A stretch of DNA of 64,000 nt from Gemmatimonadaceae bacterium. GTDB lineage: Bacteria > Gemmatimonadota > Gemmatimonadetes > Gemmatimonadales > Gemmatimonadaceae. The position numbers and the translations under genes were made by a program. Of this stretch, positions 1 through 4,844 are shown piece after piece; within the stretch, counting starts at the first letter, position 1, and the number at the start of each line of letters is the position of its first letter. The notes beneath the pieces were generated by a model, which saw only the letters and a program-made list of their open reading frames with translations, was not told the DNA's origin and made no database searches. The stretch lies in NCBI GenBank assembly GCA_020846935.1, contig JADLCY010000004.1, positions 1 through 64,000 on the forward strand, read 5' to 3'.

Positions 1-101
1 AGGCCGAGCAGCTGCGTATAGACACTATCGACCAGGTACTGGCCAGCGAACTGCCCTAAGCGAGCACGCTCGCTATCGTCTCTAGCCGACCGTCGAGTCA
101 T
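1..101 (-). CDS. 5' part of a further cassette gene, cut by the window edge
   Basis: An ATG at 101-99 opens a frame that stays open for 33 codons to the edge. It is preceded by a strong ribosome binding site (AGGAAGGAG, 4-5 bases before the ATG), and the gene starts just downstream of the attC core at 120-126, as expected for the next cassette. The visible N-terminus begins MTRRSARDDSERARLGQFAG. Product not recognised; too little is visible to assign a function. Confidence 0.6.
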   Translation of the reverse strand, partial: MTRRSARDDSERARLGQFAGQYLVDSVYTQLLG

Positions 102-119
102 CAATACTCCTTCCTGTCT

Positions 120-215
120 GCATAACGTCAGCTTGTGCTGTGGACGCTCCAATAATGCGGCCGCGGAGCGGCCGCCATCAATAGCGCGGCCATCAGTCAC
201 CAAGCGCCGTTATGC
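120..215 (-). repeat. attC: attC site (96 bp) of the cassette ending at 210
   Basis: Bounded by GCATAAC (120-126) and GTTATGC (209-215). The outer arms pair (gcataacg/cgttatgc, then a mismatched stem), and the centre carries GCGGCCGC...GCGGCCGC as a short inner hairpin. The TAA stop of the adjacent gene lies inside the right-hand core. It closely resembles the site at 717-812 in length and sequence, which supports a shared attC family. Confidence 0.85.
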
Positions 216-689
216 CGCTCCCGGCCGCTCGCCCTCCACGAAGCCGTCCCACTTCCTCATCACCGCGCTCGCGAGCTCTAACGCGTCCCATTTCGTTCCG
301 TCGCTGAGGATGACTACGGACGTCCCGTTTCCGAGATTGCCCCCTGAGGGGTCGTACTCTAGCGCCTCCGATGGAGGGGCGGGCTGGCTTGGGGAACGAA
401 TGGTGTGATGCTTGTGCGAGTTGGCGAGATCGCGACACAGGCGCATCTCGGCGCTCGACTCGATGAATGCATCCAGATCGGACTGCTTCACGGCGCCGGA
501 ATCCGCGAGCCAGTCGCGCAGGTGAAACGCATTCTCGAAGAACGCGAACAGAAAGTCGTACCGGTCTGTGGGCGACGCTGCCAGCTGCAAGCGGGCATGC
601 CATCTCCTAGCACGGTCCAACTGGGCGCTCCAACCGCCCGGCATGTGGAGGCTCCAGCCCACCTCTGGACGCTTCCCACCAAAACTCAC
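210..689 (-). CDS. cassette-encoded hypothetical protein with R-x5-H motif
   Basis: A 159-residue soluble protein with no signal peptide. I chose the GTG at 689: further upstream the frame only translates the attC site at 717-812. The TAA stop lies within the attC core at 209-215, a typical cassette layout. I do not recognise a named family. The middle part reads FFENAFHLRDWLADSG and then MRLCRDLANSHKHH, where R-x5-H between helices is reminiscent of HEPN nucleases; this is only a motif resemblance. The C-terminal third looks beta-rich. Exact start uncertain. Confidence 0.65.
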   Translation of the reverse strand: MSFGGKRPEVGWSLHMPGGWSAQLDRARRWHARLQLAASPTDRYDFLFAFFENAFHLRDWLADSGAVKQSDLDAFIESSAEMRLCRDLANSHKHHTIRSPSQPAPPSEALEYDPSGGNLGNGTSVVILSDGTKWDALELASAVMRKWDGFVEGERPGAA

Positions 690-716
690 ACGAACCTCAT
701 CGAGTCGCGCTCGTCG

Positions 717-812
717 GCATAACGTTTGCTTGTGCTGCAGACACTCAATGAGATGCGGCCGCGCAGCGGCCGCTTCAACAGCGTGGCTGTCAGCCACCAA
801 GCATCGTTATGC
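717..812 (-). repeat. attC: attC site (96 bp) of the HNH cassette
   Basis: Bounded by GCATAAC (717-723) and GTTATGC (806-812), the same length as the site at 120-215 and similar to it along its whole length, including the central GCGGCCGC inverted pair. The stop codon of the HNH gene (807-809) lies in the right core site. The outer arms are complementary with a few unpaired bases, as in attC hairpins. Confidence 0.87.
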
Positions 813-1637
813 GGGGCGGCCGCGAACATAGTCCATATACGCTCGCGCGAACGCATGATGGTGGTAATGGCAGTCCTCGCAAAGCACCTGTAGATCCTTC
901 GGGAGTTCGGCTCCGCCCACACGGTCGTACGATACGTGATGAACGTGAAGGCCGGCATCTTGGTCGCCACACTCCTCACAGCGGAACCAGGCGTTCTTCA
1001 GCGCCCCCTCTCGCTTCGCTCTCCATACCGAACTCTTCAGGTACTCGGCGTAGGCTGCACGACGCTCGTTTGCAGCCTCGTCGGCAGGCAGGCCGGCAAC
1101 GGAACCTGGAAACACGAGGACACCGTTCTCGTTGACAAGCCATGATTCAACGTCGTCGCCAAAGTCGATGTCGCTAGCCACCATGGTCGCGGCGGAAGAC
1201 CAGCCACAACCGCACGCACCACACTGTGGACAGATGATGTTCAGCAGCGTACAGGCAGAGCACAGCGCATGAAGCTGACTGTCGACGGTAGCCTTGCAGT
1301 TGTAGCAATGGCTTGTACGCCGAGCAGGATCCACGGACCTTACGGACCCGAGGTACGGCAAGCCGCGACGCTTCAAGTCCTGGCGGTGTCGGACTCGAGG
1401 TACCCACTCGGGGCTTGCAGGAACGTGAGGACGCTTCGGCGGCGGCGGGGCTGACCGATCATTGCTGACGAGTCCGGTCTCTATTCGCGCCTTCTCTAAG
1501 CGCGCAGCCTCCAGAGGCGACGAGAAATCGACTGAGGTGTCGCGTCGCTTGAGCGGGACGTCAGGTGCGGCGGGTGCCTTGGGCTTCAGAGATGCCAAGT
1601 GGTCGCGGAGCTGCTCCTCGATGCTCTTGCCGACCAT
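807..1637 (-). CDS. cassette-encoded HNH endonuclease with zinc-ribbon cysteines
   Basis: A 276-residue predicted nuclease. The C-terminal quarter carries a zinc-finger HNH signature: CEECG, then HVHH, then LPKDLQVLCEDCH, which would bind a divalent metal and hydrolyse DNA phosphodiester bonds. Before it is a separate Cys cluster (CYNCK, CSAC, CPQCGACGCG) like a zinc ribbon, perhaps for DNA recognition. The N-terminal ~80 residues are charged and low in complexity. ATG at 1637 has a GGAGG ribosome site 7 bases upstream; the TAA stop is embedded in its attC. It may serve defence or a selfish function; substrate unknown. Confidence 0.85.
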   Translation of the reverse strand: MVGKSIEEQLRDHLASLKPKAPAAPDVPLKRRDTSVDFSSPLEAARLEKARIETGLVSNDRSAPPPPKRPHVPASPEWVPRVRHRQDLKRRGLPYLGSVRSVDPARRTSHCYNCKATVDSQLHALCSACTLLNIICPQCGACGCGWSSAATMVASDIDFGDDVESWLVNENGVLVFPGSVAGLPADEAANERRAAYAEYLKSSVWRAKREGALKNAWFRCEECGDQDAGLHVHHVSYDRVGGAELPKDLQVLCEDCHYHHHAFARAYMDYVRGRPA

Positions 1638-1649
1638 CAATCAACCTCC

Positions 1650-1765
1650 GCATAACGTTCAAGGTCAGCTGCGGCGGAATCCATAAGATCGCGCTGTGGA
1701 CACGAGCGCAGCGAGTGCCTCAGCGCGTACCATACCTCCGCCGTCTGCTGCAACGCCAGTTAGGG
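1650..1765 (-). repeat. attC: attC site (116 bp) of the secreted-protein cassette
   Basis: Bounded by GCATAAC (1650-1656) and GTTAGGG (1759-1765). Arms around gtcagctgcggcgg and ccgccgtctgctgc pair imperfectly; the longer middle makes this the longest site in the array. The stop codon of the neighbouring gene (1760-1762) lies in the right core. Confidence 0.75.
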
Positions 1766-2293
1766 CTCACGTGTTCGTGACGATCCGGCGGCCGCGCCCA
1801 ACCCGAGTCGCAGAGCCCAGCCGACGCCAGTTCCGTGGCCGCGGATAGGTAAGGCGTGTGCGCGTAGCTCGGTGGCGGCCACAAGGGCGCTCGCGAGGGT
1901 CCACGGGCGCCGGAGATAGAGAGCGGCCATCGGACGAGGGGTGTCATGCCGCTCCCTGACGCGAGCAATGGTTGCTCCCGCCGTCCAAGCCCGCTCAGGT
2001 AGGTGATCGCCAAACGCGAAGCCCGCGCCCACTTCAATCACGCGAGCATCGTGAAGATCACAGAATCCGTCGCACCCAGTCGCAATGCCGAAGCGCGACG
2101 AGCCCGCGCGAAACTCGACACGTTGGAATCGTAAAGCGGCGCTACCTCCGAGCGCAGCCACCGCACCTGCGCCCTGAACGCCTCCCCCTTCGAAGTGGCC
2201 GAGCGCTTCCGCCCGCCATTGCGCGGCGACCTGGCCGGGTACGCTGAGAACCGAAAGCGCGACGATGAAAGCGAGCTTCACAATGTGGGGCAT
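1760..2293 (-). CDS. cassette-encoded secreted protein, function unknown
   Basis: 177 residues with a clear Sec signal peptide (MPHIVKLAFIVALSVLSVPG then QVAAQW). I placed the start at the ATG at 2293 because it puts the signal peptide at the N-terminus; a GTG at 2356 is an upstream alternative. The mature part alternates small and aromatic residues (repeated Gly, Ala, and pairs such as RAGSSRFG, AGAGFAFG), as in small outer-membrane or beta-sandwich proteins, but I do not recognise the family. The TAA stop sits in attC. Confidence 0.65.
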   Translation of the reverse strand: MPHIVKLAFIVALSVLSVPGQVAAQWRAEALGHFEGGGVQGAGAVAALGGSAALRFQRVEFRAGSSRFGIATGCDGFCDLHDARVIEVGAGFAFGDHLPERAWTAGATIARVRERHDTPRPMAALYLRRPWTLASALVAATELRAHALPIRGHGTGVGWALRLGLGAAAGSSRTREP

Positions 2294-2422
2294 GCTGCTG
2301 GACGCGCCACCACGGCACGTCAACGACACGGACCTCACCGTAAAGGAAAGCGTCACACGCGGAAGTGGTGCTCGCGCGAACGCCGAAGTGCTCTCAAGGT
2401 GCCCGAGGCACTGCTCGGTGAG

Positions 2423-2522
2423 GCCTAACGGTCAGAATTGAGCTGCAAGGGCACCCAATAGGACGCGGCCGCAGGCCGCGAGTCCGCAGCGCAGCCCTTG
2501 CCAGCTCCAATTCCTGTTAGAC
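2423..2522 (-). repeat. attC: attC site (100 bp) of the GIY-YIG cassette
   Basis: The clearest attC here: GCCTAAC (2423-2429) and GTTAGAC (2516-2522) ends. The inner arms AGCTGCAAGGGC and GCCCTTGCCAGCT are complementary except for one extra base, and a second extra base occurs in the outer arm. Such unpaired extrahelical bases are what integrases use to choose the strand. The loop region has nested GCGGCCGC/GGCCGCG palindromes. Confidence 0.92.
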
Positions 2523-2525
2523 CGC

Positions 2526-3110
2526 TCACGCGGTAAGCGGTTCGACAGGAAAGCCGTGAAGCCTACGTGGACAACTCATCAATAGAGTGAACGGACGATC
2601 ATTCGCGCTGAAGCCGTGGCTTCGGTTCCCGGTGACCATGTCCTTCACGTTGCCACCTTGCTTCCGGAGGTGCTCCAGAAGCGCCGCCTCCGCACGCTTG
2701 TTCAATTGCTCAATATCGGGAAGCGGCGCAAGCCAGATCTCTAGATACTCGAGATACTCCCTGAGCACGGGAGCGCGTCGTTCCAAGTGTTCAAGATGCT
2801 CGATTGCGGAACGCCACCCGTCTCCCCGCCATCCGTATCCGCTCCAAACCCGCCGCACTTGGCCCCGCCGGCACTCGGGAATGCTCCAAGCGCTATACGA
2901 CCCACTTAACTGCCGCTGCAGGTGGTCCAGAAACCGGAGCCGGTAGGGCTTGCCGGTCTCGCCAACGTAGATGATCCACCCACCGTCGTCTTCCCCAGGG
3001 CCGACCCAGAGATAGAGGCCGCTCATTAATGCCGCTGCGCAATTGAAAACGAGCGGCTCTGGGCCGCCGATGAACCGGAATGGACCTTGAAAGCTCACAT
3101 CGATTTGCAT
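2526..3110 (-). CDS. cassette-encoded GIY-YIG-like nuclease
   Basis: 194 residues. Residues ~30-65 read GLYLW...WIIYVGETG followed by YRLRFLDHLQRQL, which matches the GIY...YVG core with the downstream Arg and His expected in GIY-YIG nucleases. The C-terminal half is helical and charged with no motif I recognise. GIY-YIG domains cut DNA in restriction, homing or repair enzymes; the target here is unknown. Starts at ATG 3110 without an obvious ribosome site; ends with TGA 4 bases before its attC. Catalytic assignment would need structural comparison. Confidence 0.75.
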   Translation of the reverse strand: MQIDVSFQGPFRFIGGPEPLVFNCAAALMSGLYLWVGPGEDDGGWIIYVGETGKPYRLRFLDHLQRQLSGSYSAWSIPECRRGQVRRVWSGYGWRGDGWRSAIEHLEHLERRAPVLREYLEYLEIWLAPLPDIEQLNKRAEAALLEHLRKQGGNVKDMVTGNRSHGFSANDRPFTLLMSCPRRLHGFPVEPLTA

Positions 3111-3141
3111 TTATGATCTGCGCCACGAAGGTCGATGAGCG

Positions 3142-3234
3142 GTGTAACGTGGAAGCTGAGCTGCAGCCGAAGGCATTAGTGCGAGCGGAGCGAGCATACC
3201 ATAGCTCGGCTGTCTGCTCCAGCGTGTGTTATGC
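3142..3234 (-). repeat. attC: attC site (93 bp) of the first cassette
   Basis: Bounded by GTGTAAC (3142-3148) and GTTATGC (3228-3234). The inner parts agctgcagccga and tcggctgtctgct are complementary with unpaired bases, and the central gcgagcggagcgagc forms a small hairpin. It is followed 6 bases on by the stop of the gene at 3241. Confidence 0.82.
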
Positions 3235-3240
3235 GGCGTC

Positions 3241-3615
3241 TCACTCGTATGGAAGCTCATCGGGTCCGCGGCCAACGTGGTCCGGCTCCGGATCTTGATC
3301 GAACTGCACTGCTTCGATTCCCTGCCTACCCTGTAGTACGGCCTTGGCTACCCGGTGCATTCCGTCCATGACAGCACCTCGCGATGACAGGATTATCGGG
3401 TACGATAGATCTGCCTGTTCGATCAGCCTCATGTGCCCGATCATCGCCTGCCAGCTTTGCCGCTCATTGTCGCCGGACCAAGATTCGGCAAGTTCTCGAA
3501 TCTCTGTCAGCGGGATCTGCTTCCGCGGCAGGTGGCGCGAAAGCTCGATCAAGCGGTCGACGTCCCAGGCCAAGAGGCCGCGGATGGAAGCCCAAAAGTA
3601 GTACTGCTTTCGCAC
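3241..3615 (-). CDS. cassette-encoded ParB/sulfiredoxin-fold-like protein
   Basis: 124 residues, no signal peptide. The C-terminal half has SYPIILSSRGAVMDGMHRVA then KAVLQGRQGIEAVQF, which matches the ParB/Srx-type core (substrate loop with D-G-x-H-R) used for CTP/ATP binding or nuclease activity. The N-terminal half is a helical segment rich in Arg and Trp. GTG at 3615 is used because no ATG is nearby; GAGG lies about 10 bases upstream. This is the cassette nearest the putative attI, so it is the one most likely expressed from an integron promoter. Function inferred from motif only. Confidence 0.7.
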   Translation of the reverse strand: MRKQYYFWASIRGLLAWDVDRLIELSRHLPRKQIPLTEIRELAESWSGDNERQSWQAMIGHMRLIEQADLSYPIILSSRGAVMDGMHRVAKAVLQGRQGIEAVQFDQDPEPDHVGRGPDELPYE

Positions 3616-3659
3616 GGCAGCGCTGCCTCATTCTAGGGTACGTGCCTTCGCGCCCGGCC

Positions 3660-3746
3660 GCATAACTACTTTTTCGGCTGCTTCGAGCCTACCGCCCAGC
3701 CTGCAAACCCGCAACGGCACGTGCCAGAAGCCCCCCGCCGTTAGCC
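3660..3746 (-). other. attI: putative attI recombination site
   Basis: A core site GTTATGC (minus strand, 3666-3660) marks the upstream boundary of the first cassette. The bases before it on the minus strand (CGAAAAAGTA) recall the A-rich run that precedes the core of known attI sites. Unlike the five attC sites, the flanking 80 bases do not fold into a good palindrome, which is expected for attI. A GTTAGCC-like word occurs at 3740-3746 but its arm does not pair convincingly. Confidence 0.5.
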
Positions 3747-4334
3747 TGCAAAGCCCGCGCGTTTGCAACGCCCCGGAATCTCCCGAAAACGCGTGCCCCA
3801 GCACCCGATTGAATCCAGGAACGGGTCCACCGCAGGGAGGGAAACCACACACCTGCAGCACCTTCGCCGTCTCGTACACCACGACACCACCCGCTCCGGC
3901 TCACGTCCCGCCATGTCGTGATATCTGGCCACGCGACCAATCCACGGCAGATACGCCTGCACTGTAGGCAATCAGCGGTGTCGCACGCACTGAGCGGAAC
4001 GCGCTGGCGCCACGCGCTACCCAGCACGCGCTGCCCGAACTGCCACGTTGCCATAGATGGCACAGCCATGGCTCAAACCGGGAGCCGCTGCGCCCTCACG
4101 ATCAGCCGCTCGCGACCGGTCCCGCGACGACGGCCCATCCGCACTACCTACGCCGTGCAGCCACGAGCGATCGCGGCCGTCCGAACGCCCGGCAAGGAAT
4201 GCCGCTCCCCGGGCAAAATGTCCGGCGGGCGCGCACATCGCTTCGACCGCATCACGTCGGCGACAGCAATCATCACGCGGCGTGCGTGTCATGGCCCACA
4301 CGTGCTGGCACGCGACTCGCTTGTCCTTGCGGTC
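3667..4334. other. gap without an intact gene; possible decayed integrase
   Basis: No convincing complete gene in about 670 bases. On the minus strand, 3971-3880 encodes a stretch resembling the N-terminal SAM-like domain of tyrosine integron integrases (TVQAYLPWIGRVARYH), and near 3765-3730 another frame gives a weakly similar continuation. The frame is broken and no catalytic domain follows. The remaining bases (about 4000-4330) hold only short frames with arginine-rich translations typical of non-coding high-GC DNA. Confidence 0.4.
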
Positions 4335-4844
4335 ATGATGACACGCCGCCACAGCCAGTACCGCTCGCGCCACGCGGCAATCTTTGGCGCCCTCCTCCTG
4401 ATGACGGCAGCCTGCGCCGATGGAGACGGGTTCACGCCAGTGGAGCCGCTGGCTCCGGCCGTGGCTGCGGTGCTGGACTCACTGCTCACCGATGAGTGGA
4501 GGGCCGGCGCGCGGTACCAACAGGTGATGCAGCGTTTCGGCACGGTGTCGCCCTTCCGAGAGATGGAACCGGTACAGGAGAGCCGCGCGGCGAGCCTGCT
4601 GCAGATCTATCGGTCCTACCCGGCCTTCCCACCGAGCCGCCCCACGGGCGCCGTTCAAGGCATCGAGATCTATGCCTCGCTCGAGGGTGCGTGCGAGGTG
4701 GCCCTGGAGGCGGAAACCGCAACGGTGCAGCGGTACGCGCGCGCGCTCGCGCTGAATCCGCCAGAGATGGTGCAGCGGATCCTCCGATTCAATCGCGCCA
4801 ATACACTCGCGTTCGAGGTGGTGGCAGCCGCGCGCTGCCGGTAG
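4335..4844 (+). CDS. DUF2202-like (ferritin-like fold) lipoprotein
   Basis: 169 residues. An N-terminal basic stretch and hydrophobic segment end in a lipobox (LLLMTAAC), so it is probably lipid-anchored in the envelope. The mature part, LLTDEWRAGARYQQVMQRFG, then EPVQESRAASLLQIYRSYP, then ACEVALEAETATVQRYARAL, has the spacing of helices seen in DUF2202 proteins, which adopt a ferritin-like four-helix bundle with regularly placed Glu/His or similar residues. Whether a metal site remains is unclear. The start is one of two adjacent ATGs (4335, 4338) with no strong ribosome site; long frame extension upstream is not plausible. Confidence 0.65.
   Translation: MMTRRHSQYRSRHAAIFGALLLMTAACADGDGFTPVEPLAPAVAAVLDSLLTDEWRAGARYQQVMQRFGTVSPFREMEPVQESRAASLLQIYRSYPAFPPSRPTGAVQGIEIYASLEGACEVALEAETATVQRYARALALNPPEMVQRILRFNRANTLAFEVVAAARCR

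Follow-up and report, generated by a model that had tools for sequence, protein, structure and literature searches.

A chromosomal cassette array with attI and a centrally deleted integrase gene in a genome of the Gemmatimonadaceae

In chromosomal integrons of the Treponema denticola type, the integrase gene intI is read towards attI, and in T. phagedenis integron remnants without intI have been reported (PMC3607928). A codirectional layout is also known from the 'inverted' sub-clade of the soil/freshwater IntI clade, for which Gemmatimonadota were not among the modelled taxa (PMC8352920). Gemmatimonadota appear in a list of integron-bearing phyla (PMC8618304). Our literature search returned mention of Gemmatimonadota integrons at the level of such a listing; subscription papers lay mostly outside the search, and an earlier description is possible. 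Codirectional chromosomal integrons, integrase loss and integrons of Gemmatimonadota are already on record, to which the present array adds a multi-platform twist.

We analysed the first 64 kb of contig C4 (the window, which starts at the first base of the contig) in a genome of 4.52 Mb in 15 contigs. The features at its left end are listed in Table 1. On the minus strand they follow in the order intI remnant, attI and cassettes 1 to 6, and we are highly confident that this end of the window is a codirectional ('inverted-integrase') chromosomal integron array with a deleted intI. The tandem attC sites have RYYYAAC-like and GTTRRRY-like core sites with paired arms, lie at the 3' ends of small genes, and these genes point in one direction. 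In attC structure, core sites and tandem cassettes the array resembles class 1 and Vibrio-type integrons, whereas their intI is read away from the cassettes and that of the window towards them. As in the Treponema denticola type, intI, attI and cassettes are read in one direction, with attI beyond the 3' end of intI; in contrast to that type, the array belongs to another phylum, one genome has several platforms, and intI has been centrally deleted while attI was kept. The layout is also that of the 'inverted' IntI sub-clade, and here every relative in which attC could be detected next to intI shows it. With at least two attC sites and no intact intI nearby, the array can be classed as a CALIN (IntegronFinder's term for an attC cluster without integrase), from which it differs in still having attI and part of intI.

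Table 1. Features of the integron array and its chromosomal flank in the window.
Feature	Position	Strand	Description
Start of cassette 6	1..119	-	ATG after plausible ribosome-binding site; cut by end of contig C4
attC of cassette 5	120..215	-	R'' GCATAAC ... R' GTTATGC; R3 E 3.1e-10; fold z -3.9/-4.3
Cassette 5 gene	210..716	-	about 168 aa; no confident family
attC of cassette 4	717..812	-	R3 E 1.9e-9; fold z -5.8/-7.1
Cassette 4 gene	807..1640	-	HNH endonuclease, PF01844, E 5e-7
attC of cassette 3	1650..1765	-	R3 E 1.2e-12; fold z -2.5/-1.8 only
Cassette 3 gene	1760..2356	-	up to 198 aa; signal-peptide-like stretch near start; no family
attC of cassette 2	2423..2522	-	R3 E 6.5e-14; fold z -5.3/-3.9
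Cassette 2 gene	2526..3110	-	194 aa; GIY-YIG-like motif by eye only; no Pfam match
attC of cassette 1	3142..3234	-	closest to attI; R3 E 1.9e-18; poor fold alone
Cassette 1 gene	3241..3615	-	124 aa; no family match; ParB/sulfiredoxin-like motif by eye only
attI	3660..3746 (about)	-	core GTTATGC (minus strand, 3660-3666) and part upstream of core
intI remnant	3747..4036 (about)	-	5' part and 3' tip of gene; central part deleted
Lipoprotein-like gene, chromosomal flank	4304..4843	+	72% to G003:C419:9098-9640; conserved in congener G003

The preliminary description of this DNA had proposed five attC sites, each abutting the 3' end of a minus-strand gene. We scanned both strands of the 64 kb with a covariance model (R3) trained on 26 attC sites, all of them outside the window, on other contigs of the genome and in relatives. 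The scan returned five sites, all on the minus strand, and all of the proposed sites scored, with exactly the coordinates given before (E 2e-18 to 2e-9). Besides these five, no match below E 0.4 was found in the 64 kb on either strand, the next being the antisense of 717-812 at E 0.42. The training sites had first been detected with a model (R1) that included the window sites, so that the origins of the two sets are not wholly independent; many of the 26 adjoin intI genes, which is independent support. A regular-expression scan missed four of the five sites because their GCATAAC-like cores depart from the pattern used, and Rfam gave no match within the window.

Covariation was analysed in the paired arms of the 26 outside sites. 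The results showed that 88.9% of the cells were paired, compared with 74.2% after shuffling, and that changes on both sides were seen in 78 cells, compared with 25.9 in shuffles; the signal was lost once one arm was slid by a single column. In the inner helix (columns 13-30 with 81-94), 11 of the 14 pairs had changed on both sides. The 5' arm is broken by single unpaired positions, as expected of attC sites, which carry extrahelical bases. Folding, by which the earlier proposal could also be checked, bore it out in part: as single sequences, the sites of cassettes 5, 4 and 2 had clear folding energies (z -3.9 to -7), that of cassette 3 was weak, and that of cassette 1 was not distinguishable from its shuffles. 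The paired structure of the last two is thus shown by the family model and not by their own folding energy.

The first cassette begins at the core of attI. Of the parts of a complete integron, an attI adjoining the first cassette is recognised by homology, which is also what sets its limits, and an intact intI beside the array is missing. Over 87 bp, the attI of the window is 82% identical to the copy behind the intact intI on contig C15; identity is 85% to the copy on C13 and 79% to that at the end of C1. The intI remnant was found by similar comparisons: a truncated intI with attI near the right end of C1 aligned with the window over 397 bp (63%, E 8e-25), positions 3905-4012 matched the 5' part of the C15 intI (109 bp, 72%, E 9e-13), and positions 3656-3773 on the minus strand matched its 3' tip together with attI (118 bp, 75%, E 6e-21). 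The preliminary description had seen a chromosomal cassette array without intact integrase and had suggested a search of the flank for intI. The array is supported and the window indeed has no intact integrase, but the attI and the remnant had been overlooked, as had the common reading direction of the parts and the intact sister integrons of the genome.

Two intact intI genes were found in the genome, three platforms with the window type of attI and a deleted intI, and one further broken intI. Against a cut-off of 265 bits for the integron-integrase profile, the intact gene on C15 scored 437.6 bits and a second, distant one on C1 at 748 kb scored 345.5 bits. A centrally deleted intI lies on C1 at 933.7 kb, and the attI copy at the right end of C13 is accompanied by its own partly deleted intI. 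At the sister platforms on C4, C13 and the end of C1, attI and cassettes were kept and the middle of intI was lost. Since the 3' ends of the deletions differ between C13 and the end of C1, central parts of intI were probably lost at least twice, in separate events; the deletion of the window may be shared with C13, the alignment being ambiguous. On C8, at 141.6-142.5 kb (L011:9580-10500), there is also a frame-broken and more distant intI with no clear array adjoining.

By analogy with known integrons, attI (core 3660-3666) would be the site at which an integrase inserts cassettes, cassettes would be excised or shuffled at attC sites folded from single-stranded DNA, and their genes would be expressed from a putative promoter upstream of the intI remnant. 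With the local intI centrally deleted, service to the array could at best come in trans, from the intact sister integrases, of which the one on C15 would be the first candidate because its attI is about 82% identical. That the C15 integrase serves the dispersed platforms on C4, C13 and the C1 end in this way is a tentative and rather unlikely proposal. If it is true, several cassette arrays in one genome depend on a single recombinase, and the loss of an integrase is streamlining and not the death of an array. With four sister platforms of one attI type and one intact integrase, recombination in trans can be tested directly.

The array may instead be a frozen relic, an attC cluster with a dead attI on which no integrase acts any more, and to this we give somewhat less than even credence; the identity of the locus is the same in both readings, and they differ in present activity. 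The heavy decay of the intI remnant argues for a relic, as do the decay of three platforms of the genome and the broken frame of the further intI on C8. However, attI is better conserved among the sisters (79-85%) than the intI remnant (63-72%), the fit of all five attC sites to the family model is complete, and the genome has an intact intI with the matching type of attI. The first two of these sequence features would also speak for service in trans.

A sixth cassette, cut at the left edge, had been noted before and was borne out; as the cut is the end of contig C4, the array runs on past the window. Minus-strand attC sites forming the tail of an array lie at the right end of C8. In the congener G003, one contig carries the C8 segment (threonine dehydratase, tRNA-Cys) followed, after about 2.7 kb free of attC, by the homologue of the flank gene, so that the corresponding site there is without an array. 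From the array tail and this synteny, the array of the window is most likely situated between the C8 chromosomal segment and position 4036 of C4, with ordinary chromosome to its right; both its probable length and the join to C8 are drawn from synteny in one relative, with the contig ending at position 1. Within the array tail, a transposase gene (C8:421088-422389, L068:13088-14389) adjoins a weak attC at C8:422573 and precedes an intact attC at C8:424052.

The same evidence bears on the idea that assembly has divided a single integron into the window array and the C15 intI. The two contigs have the attI type in common and each breaks off within an array, but the array of the window is bounded on its right by an attI and an intI remnant of its own, and synteny links the left end of C4 to the right end of C8, which makes such a split very improbable. 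Seven of the 30 contig ends lie in integron parts, namely heads at C15, C1 and C13 right and C4 left and tails at C14 left and C8 and C5 right (1e-5 by a rough, post hoc binomial estimate), and arrays seem to break this assembly. The arrays may vary within the population that was sampled, or may be long and have stayed unassembled; a search for exact overlaps between contig ends found none. Practically dismissible is the suggestion that chance or repeat-family palindromes (REP-like elements, terminators) mimic attC: GC-rich hairpins are common in such genomes and two of the window sites have a long similarity in common, but it is refuted by the scan with the outside-trained model, which matched only five sites in 64 kb, and by the adjoining attI and intI remnant, and in relatives such sites adjoin intI. 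A genome-wide scatter of the palindromes away from short genes, which would have spoken against the original proposal, was not seen; at least 25 matches at E up to 0.01 were found in the 4.5 Mb, from 150 scored candidates per genome, and most of them stand in groups next to small ORFs or intI genes.

The codirectional layout of the window, with remnant and cassettes on the minus strand and attI between them, recurs on C15, where the attC lies on the intI strand beyond the 3' end of intI and attI directly follows the stop codon. In relatives, about 18 loci have detectable attC near intI, and at all of them attC lies on the strand and on the 3' side of intI. Among named records of other phyla, the codirectional layout was found in Acidobacteriota, Rokubacteria, Krumholzibacteriota, Myxococcota and Actinomycetes, and the classical divergent layout in Pseudomonadota, Verrucomicrobia and Desulfuromonas. 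On an intI tree, a quick one with many open forks and with layout scored only where the model sees attC, the layout requires 2 changes, compared with 9.1 for shuffled labels. In several relatives (L041, L049, L054, L062, L063) we also found short inverted repeats TTAGGCTGC...GCAGCCTAAC 3' of the intI stop codon, possibly attI or regulatory elements.

Each attC site in the window stands behind the 3' end of an ORF on the minus strand, as had been proposed. The cassette genes are accessory, consisting of an HNH nuclease and small proteins of unknown function; a confident family was obtained for cassette 4 only, and PADLOC returned weak domain matches on the cassette proteins. No homologue of the cassette 2 protein was found in 36 relatives, as is usual for cassettes, and its single-sequence AlphaFold model, with a pLDDT of 32, was uninformative. 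The array at the C1 end contains a GIY-YIG protein and a MazE/PemK-like toxin-antitoxin pair, both common cassette cargo.

Integron integrases matching at E 1e-60 or better were found in 91 of 249 good genomes and 51 of 106 genera of Gemmatimonadota. The phylum is common in soil and little studied, and with more than a third of the good genomes carrying an integron integrase it holds a large, little explored cassette pool. A search of the genome for 16S found none, and RpoB was compared instead. It shares 78% identity with its counterpart in G026 (same family) and 61% with the one encoded on a named Gemmatimonadota chromosome, and comparison with other phyla gives 47-51%; the host thus most likely belongs to the Gemmatimonadota. 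G026 has about 15 attC sites in 40 kb, counted by hand. In G020, also of the same family, about 82 attC sites, likewise counted by hand, lie on the intI strand within 45 kb (G020:C3:810839-856168, L186-L188), with intI at 856836-857774, forming a large codirectional chromosomal integron. A record named Gemmatimonas phototrophica (L109, L160) looks misnamed: its RpoB is 58% identical over part of the protein and is without the longer form of other Gemmatimonadota, and in the tree its intI falls together with a cyanobacterial one.
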